From: Clostridiaceae bacterium
Lineage (GTDB): Bacteria; Bacillota; Clostridia; DSM-8532
Reading direction: 5' to 3'
Assembly (NCBI GenBank): GCA_012719545.1
Contig: JAAYAD010000065.1
Coordinates: 1-64,000 of the forward strand
DNA length: 64,000 nucleotides
In this document: piece by piece, positions 10,972 to 34,698 of the stretch
How the letters are laid out: each line of letters opens with the position of its first letter
How positions within the stretch are numbered: the stretch's first letter is position 1
Program-made: the position numbers and the translations under genes
The notes under the pieces: generated by a model
Database searches by the model: none
Told to the model about the DNA's origin: nothing
The model's input: the letters and a program-made list of their open reading frames with translations, nothing else

Positions 10972-12162
10972 TTATCTTAATCCTGCTTTTTCCCTCAACA
11001 GTTCAACCTTATCGAGTCTTTCCCATGTGAAATCGGGGTCATTTCTGCCAAAATGGCCATAGGCCGCTGTTTTTCTGTAGATAGGTCTTCTTAAGTCAAG
11101 CATCTTAATAATTCCGGCAGGTCTTAAGTCAAAGCTCTCTGAAACAATTTGAGAAATCTTTTCTTCCGGAATTACGCCGGTTCCAAATGTATCAATCATT
11201 ATTGAAACGGGCCTTGCAACACCTATTGCGTAAGCAAGCTGAACCTCAACTCTCTTTGCAAGCCCTGCAGCTACGATATTCTTTGCCACATATCTTGCCG
11301 CATAGGCTGCTGAACGGTCCACCTTGGTGGGATCCTTTCCTGAAAAGGCTCCGCCGCCATGCCTACCCATTCCGCCATAGGTATCCACTATTATTTTTCT
11401 TCCTGTAAGACCAGAGTCACCCTGGGGTCCGCCAATTACGAAGCGGCCTGTGGGATTAATGAAGAAGCGGGTTTTGTCGTCCAGCAATTCCTTTGGTATA
11501 ACAGGCTTTATAACATTTTCTATAATATCTTTTTCAATTCTATCATGAGTCACCTCAGGCCCATGCTGGGTTGAAACAACAATTGTGTCCACCCTGACAG
11601 GCTTGTCCCCATCATATTCAACAGTAACCTGGCTCTTGCCGTCGGGTCTTAAGTAGTCCAGTTTTCCGTTTTTCCTCACCCAGGTCAGCCTTTCGGTGAG
11701 CTTGTGGGCAAGGGAAATGGGCATTGGCATATACTCAGGGGTTTCGTCACAGGCATAGCCGAACATCATACCCTGATCCCCCGCACCGATTGCCTCAATT
11801 CCCTCATCCATCATATTAAGCTTATGCTCCAGAGCCTCATTTACACCAAGGGCAATATCCTCTGACTGTTCGTCAATGGAGGTAATTACCGCACATGTGT
11901 CACAATCAAAACCAAATTTAGCCCTGTCATAACCTATATCACGAATGGTTTCCCTGACAATTTTCGGAATATCCACATAGCATTCTGTCGTGATTTCTCC
12001 CATGACCAGAACCATACCCGTTGTAACCGCAGTTTCACAGGCAACTCGGGCATATGGGTCCTTGGCAATAATGGCATCCAAAATGCTGTCTGATATGTTG
12101 TCGCAAATCTTGTCTGGATGACCTTCGGTAACAGATTCCGAAGTAAATAATTTCCTGCTCAT
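10972..12162 (-). CDS. metK: S-adenosylmethionine synthetase
   Basis: A 396-aa enzyme making S-adenosylmethionine from methionine and ATP. Signatures are [13 protein letters not shown] at the N-terminus, [12 protein letters not shown], the [18 protein letters not shown] active-site loop, and [12 protein letters not shown] at the end. The start is ATG 12160-12162 with AAAGGAAAGGAG before it. An in-frame ATG 24 codons upstream lies in the loop of the riboswitch terminator and is rejected. Expression is under the SAM-I riboswitch upstream, giving feedback by its own product. Confidence 0.98.
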
Positions 12163-12217
12163 ATTACTCTCCTTTCCTTTTTTACAGGAGCTCTTTTTCC
12201 AATATTTTTCCCAGAAT

Positions 12218-12242
12218 AAAAAAATCTCTTCCATGAAGAGAC
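12218..12242 (-). terminator. Expression-platform terminator of the SAM riboswitch
   Basis: TCTCTTC-ATG-GAAGAGA forms a 7-bp stem followed by seven T (12218-12224), read on the minus strand. It lies 55 bases before the metK start and just after the aptamer. It should form when SAM is bound. Confidence 0.85.
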
Positions 12243-12254
12243 CGTTAACATAAG

Positions 12255-12356
12255 CCCCTCATCTGTCAGGATTACTCCTGCGGGAATTGGCACCATTGCT
12301 TTATAAGCTGGTTGCCGGGTTTCATCGGGCCCAATCCCTCCACCTCTCTTGATAAG
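12255..12356 (-). promoter_or_regulatory. SAM-I (S-box) riboswitch aptamer controlling metK
   Basis: Read on minus from 12356: CTTATCAAGAGAGGTGGAGG, then GGCCCGATGAAACCCGGCAACC, GGTGCCAATTCC and AGATGAG close to the 3' side. These are the conserved blocks of the S-box aptamer in the right order, including the P1 closing pair CTTATC/GATGAG. It senses S-adenosylmethionine; bound ligand favours the terminator at 12218-12242 and so represses metK. Confidence 0.97.
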
Positions 12357-12380
12357 GTTACATTATTCGACTGTAAGTGA

Positions 12381-16819: not shown

Positions 16820-16848
16820 CAAAAACAGGTAACCCGTATGGATTACCC
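16820..16848 (-). terminator. Terminator after coaW
   Basis: GGTAATCC pairs with GGGTTACC (one T-G wobble) around ATAC, followed by TGTTTTTGT on minus. It starts 7 bases past the coaW stop. Confidence 0.8.
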
Positions 16849-16854
16849 GTTAAT

Positions 16855-17697
16855 TTAACCTATGGATTTCACATCATGCCCATCAGGGCTTATTAAGGAA
16901 GCTCCCGCCGCAGTTGCATACTCGGCATGGGTGGGTATGTGGAATCGGACATTATGAAGTTTTGTCAGGCTGTCAAATACCGCTTTGGCCTGGGGCACCA
17001 TTGTGAGGTTGCCTGTCAGCACAACATCTTCCACTTTTTCATTCCTTGATGCAAATACAGCCATAACGCCGATGCACTGGAACACAAGATTGATAATACC
17101 CAGAGCTACATCTGCTTTTGAAGCCAAATCAATGACTTTCCCGAAATTAGAGGCAGTTGTGTCCGGAGGAAGCCCCACAATCTCATCCCGGGTTATATCG
17201 CCTATGGACAGGTCAACATTTTTTAAGTCTCCGTCCCTGGCAGTTTCAACAATGTCGTTGAAATTGCGGATATTAAGGGTCAGGCTTGAAAGGCCCAGAA
17301 GAGTGCCCCCGCCTATGCCCGTACCGCCTAAATGCATGGCTCTTCCTTTTTCAGCCATTACAAAAGCCGTACCGGTACCCATGCTGACAATAACCGCTTT
17401 TTCAAGGCCGCTTAAAAATAATCCCCCATAGCCTGTGGCCAGAAACTCGCCCACCTTATATGTTGGAATGCCGAGTATCTTTTCGTTTATAAATGAGGAG
17501 CCCACACCGGTAATCATAATCCTTTCAACATCGGACAGGGTCAGCCTGTTCTCATTGAGGAACTTGCCGAATGCCCCATAGATTGATGATATGGGATCTG
17601 TTGCCTTAACAAGCAATGGGCTAAAAATAGTTCCTTCATTAAGGCCTACTATTTTAGTGGTGCTTCCTCCTATGTCTATTCCTATTACGTGTCCCAT
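16855..17697 (-). CDS. coaW: Type II pantothenate kinase
   Basis: A 280-aa ASKHA-fold kinase phosphorylating pantothenate, the first step of coenzyme A synthesis. Motifs are GIDIGGSTTKIVG at the N-terminus, VSMGTGTAFV, and LGGTGIGGGTLLGLSSL. A C-terminal VVLTGNLTMVPQ loop is also present. This is the eukaryote-like type II form, usually insensitive to CoA feedback in bacteria. An ECF S-component gene lies 128 bases upstream on the same strand, pointing to vitamin salvage. Confidence 0.93.
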   Translation of the reverse strand: MGHVIGIDIGGSTTKIVGLNEGTIFSPLLVKATDPISSIYGAFGKFLNENRLTLSDVERIMITGVGSSFINEKILGIPTYKVGEFLATGYGGLFLSGLEKAVIVSMGTGTAFVMAEKGRAMHLGGTGIGGGTLLGLSSLTLNIRNFNDIVETARDGDLKNVDLSIGDITRDEIVGLPPDTTASNFGKVIDLASKADVALGIINLVFQCIGVMAVFASRNEKVEDVVLTGNLTMVPQAKAVFDSLTKLHNVRFHIPTHAEYATAAGASLISPDGHDVKSIG

Positions 17698-17773
17698 TTA
17701 TCTTACTCTCCATCTGTCTTTACTTTTTATACATACAACACTTTTTTCTTATATAAAGTTTTATATAAAAGCG

Positions 17774-17803
17774 ACTGCTCCTATTTTTTAAAACAGGAGC
17801 AGC
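17774..17803 (-). terminator. Terminator-like hairpin between the S-component gene and coaW
   Basis: CTGCTCCT pairs with AGGAGCAG across an A/T-rich loop; on the minus strand TCGCTTTTATAT follows. It may end transcription after the transporter gene or lower coaW expression. The following 75 bases are AT-rich with possible -10 boxes. Confidence 0.6.
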
Positions 17804-17825
17804 AAAATACTTACGTGTTCTCGTA

Positions 17826-18461
17826 CTATTTTCCACCACGGCCATTATAAATCCTGTTAAGTGCCGTCACTACAGGCAAGGATACAATGGCTGCCAATAA
17901 TATTTCAAATATTACGTTAACGGATACTCCCCCGAATATAAAAGCAAAAAGACTTGTGACAACTACCGATGAATCGGATGACTTAACTACGGCGTCCACA
18001 TATTGCTGTGCATACAAAAGGTAAATCATCCCCAGAACGCCAATTGTGTTGGTGAGAGTACCTGCTATGGCGCCCACAACAATACCTGCGCTGCGATTGT
18101 TAACAAGCTTTTTTGCACTCACATAGGCATAATGAGCAGCTATGCCTATCAAAATTCGCGGCATAACCGAAACCAGAGGATTTAAAAATACGAATGCTGT
18201 GGGAAGTCCTGCAAAAATAGTAGCTGCCGTATACAGGCTGGACAAACCAAAAATCATGCCTACAATGGCCCCCACTACCGGTCCTTCCAGAATTGCCGCA
18301 ACAATTACCGGAACGTGCATGGTTGTTATGGTTATTGGCAATGGTGGAACAGGGATGTACCCTAAAGAAGGAATAAGTGATAAAAGAATTGAAAATGCAG
18401 ACATTACGCCTGCCACTGCGATGCGCCTCGTACTGATACGGGGCTTAATGACTTTTTCCAT
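17826..18461 (-). CDS. ECF transporter substrate-binding S-component, possibly for pantothenate
   Basis: A 211-aa membrane protein with about six transmembrane helices. It has a basic N-terminus and the S-component signature AVAGVMSAFSILLSLIP, in which the small-residue A-x3-A helix contacts the T-component. S-components use a shared EcfAA'T module encoded elsewhere. Nothing in the sequence alone fixes the vitamin. The neighbouring coaW makes pantothenate the first guess, although the genes are 128 bases apart with a hairpin between. GGAGG precedes the ATG. Confidence 0.85.
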   Translation of the reverse strand: MEKVIKPRISTRRIAVAGVMSAFSILLSLIPSLGYIPVPPLPITITTMHVPVIVAAILEGPVVGAIVGMIFGLSSLYTAATIFAGLPTAFVFLNPLVSVMPRILIGIAAHYAYVSAKKLVNNRSAGIVVGAIAGTLTNTIGVLGMIYLLYAQQYVDAVVKSSDSSVVVTSLFAFIFGGVSVNVIFEILLAAIVSLPVVTALNRIYNGRGGK

Positions 18462-18532
18462 AATGTACCTCCATTCTCACTCCGCTTAGGGATATGAGTT
18501 GAATAAAAATATGTAGTTTATTAATGTCCGGT

Positions 18533-18544
18533 TTTGATATCAAA
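18533..18544. promoter_or_regulatory. Operator-like palindrome TTTGATATCAAA
   Basis: A perfect 12-base palindrome flanked by a wider CCGGT/ACCGG inverted repeat (18528-18532 and 18546-18550). It lies at about +8 to +19 relative to the predicted start of the S-component transcript, where a repressor would block elongation. The regulator is unknown. Confidence 0.5.
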
Positions 18545-18558
18545 TACCGGCAAGTAAA

Positions 18559-18588
18559 ATAATATCACAGTCTTATGGGCCTTATCAA
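18559..18588 (-). promoter_or_regulatory. Promoter of the ECF S-component gene
   Basis: TTGATA (18588-18583) and TATTAT (18564-18559) are 18 bases apart. The leader to the ATG is about 90 bases and contains the palindrome at 18533-18544. Confidence 0.6.
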
Positions 18589-32907: not shown

Positions 32908-33130
32908 TGATAAACCGTTGAGCAAGGGTAGTAGGTTACGGATGGTATTTCAGAGAGCCGCGGCTGCTGTGATGCGGTATGCCTGAACTAATCGAATGGG
33001 CTTGCGAGGGTGGCTTGAAACCATAACGGGAGTAGACGCCAACGGGAACCCTGTCCGTTATCATAAGGGTACGCATGATGGTGTGTAAGTTGAGTGGGCA
33101 GTTTTTCTGCCAATTAGGGTGGTACCGCAG
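32908..33130 (+). promoter_or_regulatory. Tryptophan T-box riboswitch leader
   Basis: The 13-base T-box core AGGGTGGTACCGC at 33116-33128 is unmistakable. Stem I closes by GCAAG (near 32922) with CTTGC (33001-33005). The specifier codon directly before it is TGG (32997-32999) followed by G, matching uncharged tRNA-Trp. AGTAG and AGAGAG motifs of Stem I are present. A GGCAG-T5-CTGCC hairpin before the T-box is Stem III. Uncharged tRNA-Trp should stabilise the antiterminator and switch on trpEGDCFBA. Confidence 0.95.
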
Positions 33131-33137
33131 AAGCATA

Positions 33138-33172
33138 AGCTTTTGTCCCTTGGGGGGCAAAGGCTTTTTTTA
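33138..33172 (+). terminator. T-box regulated terminator before trpE
   Basis: AGCTTTTGTCCC pairs with GGGGCAAAGGCT (two wobbles) and seven T follow at 33165-33171. It competes with the antiterminator containing the T-box core. Confidence 0.9.
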
Positions 33173-33234: not shown

Positions 33235-34698
33235 GTGACCAGTCCCGATCTTGAAAAAATTAAGTCCTTTGCAGGCAGATACAGCATAGTTCCTATTTTC
33301 AGAGAAATCTACGGGGATATGATTACCCCTGTGGCAGTGCTTAAAAAGCTTGCTCAAAACAGCTCCCAGCATTTTCTCCTTGAAAGTGTGGAAGGAGGAG
33401 TAAATTGGGGGCGGTACTCCTTCTTAGGTTATGATCCTGTTATGAGGGTTGTATGCAAAAACTCAACCGTCAGGATTATCAAAGGAAAAACTGAAACTAT
33501 AAAAAAGACAGACCGGCCCTTTGATGTACTTCGGGAAATAATGGGAAGATATAAAGCCCCAATTCTTGACGAAATGCCTCCATATACCGGCGGTTTTGTC
33601 GGATATTTCGCCTATTCCATGATTAAGTACAGGGAGCCCAAATTGAAGCTGGATAGCGGAGAATTTGACGATTTTGATGTAATGCTGTTTGATAAAGTAA
33701 TTGTATTTGATCATCTCCGGCAAAAAATCATGTTATTCGCCAATGTCGAAACCAGCAACCCTGAAGAAAACTACAGGCGCGCATCAGCCCAATTAGATGA
33801 CATAGAAAACATTATTCGGAACACAAAGCCTTTATTTTCTGAAAAAACCGACGACCAGCCTCAATTCTCCTGCAATATGTCAAAAGATGAATTCTGCAAT
33901 ATGGTGGATAAGGCCAAAAAGTACATTATTGACGGCGATATCTTCCAGGTAGTTCTTTCCCGCAAGTTTTCTTCACCTTTTAATGAAAGCCTTATAAATG
34001 CCTACAGGGTATTAAGAACTACAAACCCTTCCCCCTACATGGTATACCTTACAACAAATGATGTGGAGCTTATATGTTCATCACCCGAGACTCTTATAAA
34101 ACTTAAGGATGGTCAGCTTGCCACCTTTCCCGTTGCCGGCTCAAGGCCAAGGGGGAAAACTCCAAAAGAGGACATTGACCTTGAAAAGGACCTCCTGTCC
34201 GATGAAAAAGAGCTTGCCGAGCACAATATGCTGGTGGACCTTGGCCGCAACGATTTAGGAATGATATCAGAATTCAATTCTGTAAAAGTGACAAAATACA
34301 TGGCAATTCACAGGTATTCAAAAATAATGCACATCTGCTCCCAGGTTGAAGGAAAGATTCTGCCGGGATATGACGCCTTCAATGCAATTGAGGCCGTTTT
34401 GCCTGCAGGAACCCTTTCAGGGGCTCCAAAAATACGGGCATGCGAAATAATAGAGGAACTTGAGCCTGAGCCAAGAGGCATTTATGGAGGTGCACTGGGC
34501 TATATTGATTTTTCGGGGAACATGGATACCTGCATTGCTATACGGATGGCGGTAAAAAGAAATGGAGTTGTTTCCGTTCAGGCAGGAGCAGGCATTGTTG
34601 CCGACAGCGTTCCGGAAAAAGAGTACGAGGAGTCAGGAAACAAAGCCCTTGCAGTTATAAACGCCATTCTCCGGGCAAAGGAGGTAATTGAGCCTTGA
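33235..34698 (+). CDS. trpE: Anthranilate synthase component I
   Basis: A 487-aa chorismate-using enzyme that, with TrpG, makes anthranilate. C-terminal chorismate-binding signatures: IFQVVLSRKF, FPVAGSRPRGKTPKED, ILPGYDAFNAIEAVLPAGTLSGAPKIRA and QAGAGIVADSVPEKEYEE. The GTG start follows AAGGTGG by 5 bases. It is the first gene of the trp operon. Confidence 0.97.
   Translation: MTSPDLEKIKSFAGRYSIVPIFREIYGDMITPVAVLKKLAQNSSQHFLLESVEGGVNWGRYSFLGYDPVMRVVCKNSTVRIIKGKTETIKKTDRPFDVLREIMGRYKAPILDEMPPYTGGFVGYFAYSMIKYREPKLKLDSGEFDDFDVMLFDKVIVFDHLRQKIMLFANVETSNPEENYRRASAQLDDIENIIRNTKPLFSEKTDDQPQFSCNMSKDEFCNMVDKAKKYIIDGDIFQVVLSRKFSSPFNESLINAYRVLRTTNPSPYMVYLTTNDVELICSSPETLIKLKDGQLATFPVAGSRPRGKTPKEDIDLEKDLLSDEKELAEHNMLVDLGRNDLGMISEFNSVKVTKYMAIHRYSKIMHICSQVEGKILPGYDAFNAIEAVLPAGTLSGAPKIRACEIIEELEPEPRGIYGGALGYIDFSGNMDTCIAIRMAVKRNGVVSVQAGAGIVADSVPEKEYEESGNKALAVINAILRAKEVIEP

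Follow-up and report, generated by a model that had tools for sequence, protein, structure and literature searches.

A tandem-hairpin pan RNA precedes a putative pantothenate salvage unit, panT-coaW, in a Clostridiaceae genome and is widespread at clostridial PanT loci

Organization of the panT-coaW locus

The region described here lies in a 64,000-nucleotide stretch of Clostridiaceae DNA (the window), and its features are listed in Table 1. Two open reading frames lie on the minus strand, a gene for an ECF transporter S-component and a coaW gene, as the initial annotation had proposed; it also described a predicted promoter just 5' of a perfect palindrome, TTTGATATCAAA, set within a wider inverted repeat, and a terminator-like hairpin between the two genes. 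All of these are present: the palindrome has a single exact copy in the window and falls a few bases past the predicted transcription start, and the intergenic hairpin has a 13-bp stem and a weak U-run, CGCTTTTATA, although neither its position nor its sequence is common to the five relatives that were folded. Two other leader RNAs lie elsewhere in the window, a SAM riboswitch (12256-12358, minus strand, 90.8 bits) 5' of a metK-like gene (10972-12234), and a T-box leader (32909-33153, plus strand, 109.3 bits) 5' of an apparent tryptophan biosynthesis operon with a trpE-like reading frame at 33235.

Table 1. Features of the panT-coaW region, in window coordinates
Feature	Position	Strand	Basis
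Predicted sigma-70-like promoter, TTGATA-18-TATTAT	18559-18588	-	Sequence; -10-like hexamer just 5' of the RNA in 79/80 related PanT leaders, 59 with a -35
pan motif RNA, tandem hairpins, 5' leader of panT	18468-18554	-	RF01749, 43.1 bits; model R1, 77.6 bits
pan hairpin 1, two conserved bulged A residues	18525-18552	-	Rfam alignment, covariation
TTTGATATCAAA palindrome, forming the apical part of hairpin 1; palindromic form not conserved	18533-18544	-	One exact copy in window
pan hairpin 2, two conserved bulged A residues; 3' end overlaps the Shine-Dalgarno sequence	18472-18501	-	Rfam alignment, covariation
Shine-Dalgarno GGAGG of panT, abutting hairpin 2	18468-18472	-	71/83 related leaders end in CGGAGG
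panT-like ECF S-component, 211 aa, probable pantothenate importer subunit	17826-18461	-	PF12822, 96.5 bits; 4rfs_S, 6zg3_C
13-bp terminator-like hairpin between panT and coaW, weak U-run CGCTTTTATA	17774-17803	-	Sequence
coaW, type II pantothenate kinase, 280 aa	16855-17697	-	NF009842, 270.3 bits; PDB type II PanK, 68.4 bits
Terminator-like hairpin directly 3' of coaW	16824-16851	-	Sequence

The S-component and the pantothenate kinase

The 211-residue protein belongs to PF12822 (96.5 bits, over a threshold of 30.7), and a search of all solved structures returned only two true relatives, 4rfs_S (79 bits) and 6zg3_C (72.7 bits), both of which are ECF-PanT complexes according to PMC7755397. With a profile of 12 homologues the two PanT structures score 111.3 and 85.7 bits, at least 58 bits above RibU (27.5) and ThiT (26.5), so that the profile scores against solved S-components do not place the protein with another vitamin group. 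The match to the Lactobacillus proteins is full-length, and two of the three residues described in that paper as important for pantothenate in L. brevis PanT, Arg95 and Asn131, correspond to R102 and N138 and are invariant in all 12 homologues. The third, Trp64, is a phenylalanine in the window protein and in all 12 aligned relatives; this residue has been shown to matter in Lactobacillus but is not known to define the PanT family. The clostridial gene also differs from its Lactobacillus counterparts in being linked to an RNA leader and to a pantothenate kinase gene. The genome encodes a CbiQ/EcfT-family protein (185.3 bits), whose gene follows two reading frames that we name by reading their sequences, one with two ABC-ATPase domains and one for an L17-like ribosomal protein. 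This is the arrangement of the shared modules of group II ECF transporters.

The 280-residue product of the second gene is identified by its sequence as a type II pantothenate kinase, matching NF009842 at full length with 270.3 bits (curated cut-off 234) and type II kinases of known structure (PDB 4m7x and others) with 68.4 bits. Nothing notable sets it apart from known CoaW proteins save its position after a transporter gene under RNA control.

Neither PanB nor PanC was found in this genome, which is rated 99.99% complete, and both are present in only two of 33 genomes of the order (G003 and G032), where the RNA described below lies upstream of those genes. The RNA in the window is thus placed on the salvage of vitamin B5 rather than on its synthesis. 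Together these observations bear out the proposal of the initial annotation that the locus serves pantothenate uptake and activation, and we regard the S-component as PanT-like and probably the substrate-binding subunit of a pantothenate importer. It could instead carry a different substrate, such as pantetheine or another vitamin; the Trp64 to Phe change lies in the binding pocket, and some pantothenate kinases also accept pantetheine (PMC6593275). We consider this unlikely given the margin by which PanT structures outscore RibU and ThiT, the invariant pocket Arg and Asn, the lack of PanB and PanC, and the CoaW or CoaX gene that follows at 32 of 83 related loci, a set that includes several truncated ones.

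The palindrome is part of a pan RNA and not a DNA operator

Besides uptake and activation, the initial annotation had placed the genes under a repressor, not further identified, acting at the palindrome, and this second part found no support. The window contains 23 perfect 12-bp palindromes where a first-order Markov model predicts 20.25 (range 10-31), and the palindrome by itself is thus at chance level. The wider inverted repeat is above chance because it is hairpin 1 of the pan motif RNA: an unbiased Rfam scan of the window returned RF01749, an orphan cis-regulatory RNA, at 18468-18553 of the minus strand with 43.1 bits against a gathering score of 36.2 (E 1.8e-6 when 301 bases are searched), and TTTGATATCAAA forms the apical half of its first hairpin. 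This is the sole match to RF01749 over the cut-off in the 2.95-Mb genome; the best other match (15.2 bits, E 9.4) was disregarded as a second copy. The predicted fold of the leader as a whole is only moderately better than that of shuffled sequences (z = -1.81).

A perfect 12-bp palindrome just 3' of a promoter is what a DNA operator for a repressor of pantothenate genes might look like, but conservation, the point on which that reading had been staked beforehand, is lacking: the palindrome occurs in one of 85 aligned leaders, that of the window's own genome, and the operator reading fails on this count. A genome search for further sites near CoA genes recovered just one other exact copy of the 12-mer, inside an unrelated sugar ABC-permease gene, and the changes seen around the palindrome in other leaders are ones that preserve RNA pairs, the stem including bulged A residues at its middle for which a DNA operator would have no need. 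The operator is thus already largely refuted, and we rate it as extremely improbable.

The structure of the RNA is well supported by comparative analysis. Regions were fetched around 75 pan matches from the order and class, and in 14 of them the first gene after the RNA is PanT, followed by coaW in six (all in the window's family) and by coaX in five. Alignment A2 was assembled from 14 salvage-type leaders, 12 of them before panT and two before an OPT-family gene and coaW, leaving out G205, G363, G343 and two near-duplicates of G329. In this alignment pairing is kept in 97.4% of cells, and at 14 of the 19 pairs both sides vary; neither value was reached by any of 500 shuffles, and controls in which the structure was slid along the alignment gave at most 47.4% pairing. 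A2 supports two hairpins, each with two bulged A residues. A larger alignment, A4, contains 85 chosen leaders, near-duplicates and low scorers having been dropped together with L235, L251, L258 and L270 (E 2e-5 to 5e-5); here 95.6% of cells are paired and both sides vary at 16 of the 19 pairs, although the alignment is fitted to the model and represents the better-scoring part. The four bulged positions, which are also present in the aligned window sequence, are A in 83, 82, 85 and 85 of the 85 leaders.

In its tandem hairpins, in the two conserved bulged A residues of each and in its place in the 5' leader of a pantothenate operon the window RNA agrees with the pan motif as described by Weinberg et al. 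2010 (PMC2864571), where, across three phyla, the RNA lies 5' of operons for panB, panC or aspartate decarboxylase; positions before panB operons are also reported in PMC5670726 and PMC4342826. It differs from that description in preceding PanT and CoaW in a genome where PanB and PanC were not found, and in that its 3' end is itself a Shine-Dalgarno sequence and does not lead to a terminator. In the open-licence literature, to which our search was confined, we found no description of panT, coaW or coaX preceded by a pan RNA. PMC6593275 lists PanT, PanF and PanS, with known B5 transporters covering 75% of B5 auxotrophs, and the riboswitches listed there do not include pan; a survey of cis-regulatory RNA regulons (PMC3766115) has none of the pantothenate terms that we looked for.

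Pan RNA is widespread at clostridial PanT loci

A covariance model, R1, was built from A2; it scores the window leader with 77.6 bits (E 1.9e-14) as its single match in the window, which supplies one of its 14 training rows. A protein search of the 33 genomes of the order yielded 29 PanT homologues, and R1 finds the RNA directly 5' of panT at 27 of these loci with E values of 1.3e-6 or lower (seven of the 27 being training members), the other two having weak matches at E 0.015. The Rfam model matches nine of the same 33 genomes at E values up to 0.1, seven of them over the cut-off.

A second search was made for PanT in named genomes, from which the best 80 loci were kept, including those of Clostridium beijerinckii, C. 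carboxidivorans, C. drakei and Thermoclostridium caenicola. R1 matches 72 of the 80 at E<1e-3 (three, L224, L227 and L231, being training members), and six more at E 0.01-0.22; among these best 80 loci only L262 and L303 gave no match. All 78 matches (E<=1) are on the sense strand and upstream of panT, with 421 kb searched on both strands. At 40 of these loci the Rfam model was also tried, and it passes its gathering threshold at seven, compared with 36 for R1 at E<1e-3; the Rfam model thus under-calls the salvage form. Pan RNA is therefore widespread on the B5 uptake genes of clostridia and has been largely missed with the Rfam model.

Six plasmid-borne PanT homologues mark the boundary of this association. 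The RNA accompanies the two Peptostreptococcales homologues (E 8.1e-11 and 4e-4), one from Anaerotruncus has a match no better than E 0.29, and R1 gave no match at any of the three from Lactobacillales, and the association is therefore clostridial rather than general to PanT.

Leader anatomy and a proposed mode of control

The leaders at PanT loci are compact, and the boundaries of the RNA correspond closely to those of the expression signals. Of the 80 leaders with enough upstream sequence, 79 have a -10-like hexamer whose first base is 16 to 9 nt before the RNA (24-43 of 80 in control windows), and 59 of these also have a -35 at the right distance. At the other end, CGGAGG forms the exact 3' terminus of 71 of 83 leaders, and all 83 have a start codon (counting ATG, GTG and TTG) 3-14 nt past the RNA; in the window it is 6 nt away. 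The three bases immediately 5' of hairpin 2 could pair with the Shine-Dalgarno GAG in 73% of cells, compared with 37-48% at shifts of at least 3, and a hairpin 2 extended in this way toward the Shine-Dalgarno sequence is also seen when the fold of the window leader is predicted. Hairpin 2 is therefore placed where the entry of ribosomes can be blocked, and we infer from this arrangement that the panT leader is a translational OFF switch.

The wider set of pan leaders presents a different anatomy. A strong intrinsic terminator lies within 260 nt in 82 of 155 pan leaders, and across 75 non-redundant terminators the duplex between the terminator's 5' arm and the 3' arm plus tail of hairpin 2 has an energy of -10.86 kcal/mol, compared with -9.46 (sd 0.25) when arms are re-dealt among loci (none of 200 re-dealings as good) and -9.81 for reversed arms. 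The region of hairpin 1 pairs far more weakly with the same arms (-6.26 kcal/mol). Counting exact matches between hairpin 2 and the terminator arms gives a weak signal (4.22 versus 3.95 bases, with four of 1000 re-dealings as high), and the antiterminator idea rests mainly on the duplex energies and less on this count. The geometry of the biosynthetic leaders is that of an antiterminator, in which a folded hairpin 2 would go with the terminator, and so with the OFF state. The complementarity of the terminators to hairpin 2 thus argues for the same OFF logic as in the direct PanT leaders, whose own arrangement implies the same sign.

These same terminators raise the question of whether transcription attenuation also operates at panT, using either the hairpin between panT and coaW or one within the leader. 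A strong terminator within 260 nt is found in only one of the 14 leaders that directly abut PanT, where it falls inside the coding region, and the 6 nt between the RNA and the panT start codon leave no room for one, and we regard attenuation here as very unlikely. Returning to translational control, coaW is likely to be co-regulated with panT, as judged from the gene order in six genomes where the two are 27 to 160 nt apart, while the hairpin between them could uncouple coaW from the RNA in the window's genome.

Other genes downstream of pan RNA

RF01749 is found in 158 of 398 genomes of a phylum sample, from which we fetched 80 regions, a non-random set composed of the listed loci of genomes with two matches and a selection weighted to lower scores. 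PanT is in the operon in ten of these regions, and in two an OPT-family gene is followed by CoaW; the class and order samples contain five more such loci (L081, L092, L093, L095, L098, L156 and L161 in all, with the RNA on the plus strand). The one OPT-family protein that was scanned matches PF03169 with 159.6 bits, and this transporter is a candidate non-ECF importer of pantothenate or pantetheine. At L081, L092 and L098 a short reading frame begins directly after the Shine-Dalgarno-like sequence of the pan RNA.

A sodium/bile-acid symporter-family gene (PF01758) comes first at L158, followed by a gene of the PanB/C cluster, an order like that of PanS; L150 has the same apparent order by the look of its sequence, and the symporter-family gene at both is probably the pantoate transporter PanS. 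The first gene of the pan operon at L041 is CoaBC. The remaining pan operons mostly encode a DUF2520 protein, PanB, PanC and PanD, and L145, L203 and L221 were left unassigned. In many of them (L084, L041 and others; cluster c2) the DUF2520/Rossmann protein adjoins PanB, and we take it to be the PanG type of ketopantoate reductase.

Two further arrangements were seen. At L113 and L114 a sub-threshold pan-like RNA (about 29 bits), apparently with one hairpin and ending in AGGAGG, precedes an ECF S-component gene and CoaX; a single pan hairpin may suffice. In five pan-led operons BioY-like or BirA genes precede PanT-CoaX (L149, L165, L187, L190 and L193), mixing biotin and pantothenate functions; Pfam confirms BioY in L149 and BirA in L187, and the assignments in the other three are read from the sequence.

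A model for pan regulation

Taken as a whole, we think it quite probable that panT and coaW form a B5 salvage unit under a tandem-hairpin pan RNA that acts as a feedback OFF switch. Transcription would start at or beside the first base of the pan RNA. As long as the needs of the CoA pathway are covered, a factor bound to the RNA, either a metabolite of the pathway or more likely a protein that senses one, would stabilise both bulged-A hairpins, and the stabilised hairpin 2, its 3' end running into the Shine-Dalgarno sequence, would block ribosome entry on panT and shut down uptake. When CoA is short the RNA would open and PanT would be made, delivering pantothenate through the shared EcfA-EcfT module to be phosphorylated by CoaW. 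The OFF direction, the translational mode, the co-regulation of coaW and the identity of the signal are all parts of this model that we infer from leader anatomy and gene content. A product of the CoA pathway, acting directly or through a protein, is the likeliest signal, which would lie beyond pantothenate because the kinases and CoaBC are found under the same RNA.

Whether a protein takes part is a separate issue. The RNA is small and highly conserved and is found on genes for several steps around pantothenate, as riboswitches are, and it could bind CoA, phosphopantetheine or pantothenate itself. But a pair of small, similar hairpins with 16-57 nt of linker between them is more reminiscent of a double protein site, as was suggested by Weinberg et al. 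2010 (PMC2864571). The tandem hairpins fit a protein partner somewhat better, and we hold a direct metabolite riboswitch to be possible but rather doubtful.

We also offer, tentatively and as a possibility that falls a little short of probable, a broader proposal in which a single CoA-sensing system of the Bacillota has pan RNA as its read-out and guards the entries to the pathway: the synthesis of pantoate and pantothenate, the uptake of pantoate, ECF-PanT uptake, the type II and type III pantothenate kinases, and CoaBC. It would have two interchangeable output modules, blocking of the Shine-Dalgarno sequence in the direct panT leaders and an antiterminator/terminator switch in the others, and by the logic of such a system the OPT-family transporter paired with CoaW would be a new importer of pantothenate or pantetheine outside the ECF class.

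Pan RNA was described in 2010 and is still an orphan; its presence on uptake and kinase genes narrows what it can sense to a signal expected to drop under CoA shortage, wherever the pantothenate comes from. For reporter and binding assays, culturable clostridia offer convenient leaders that are short, precede a single gene and lack a terminator. Pan RNA may also serve as a marker for finding new B5 transporters, such as that of the OPT family.
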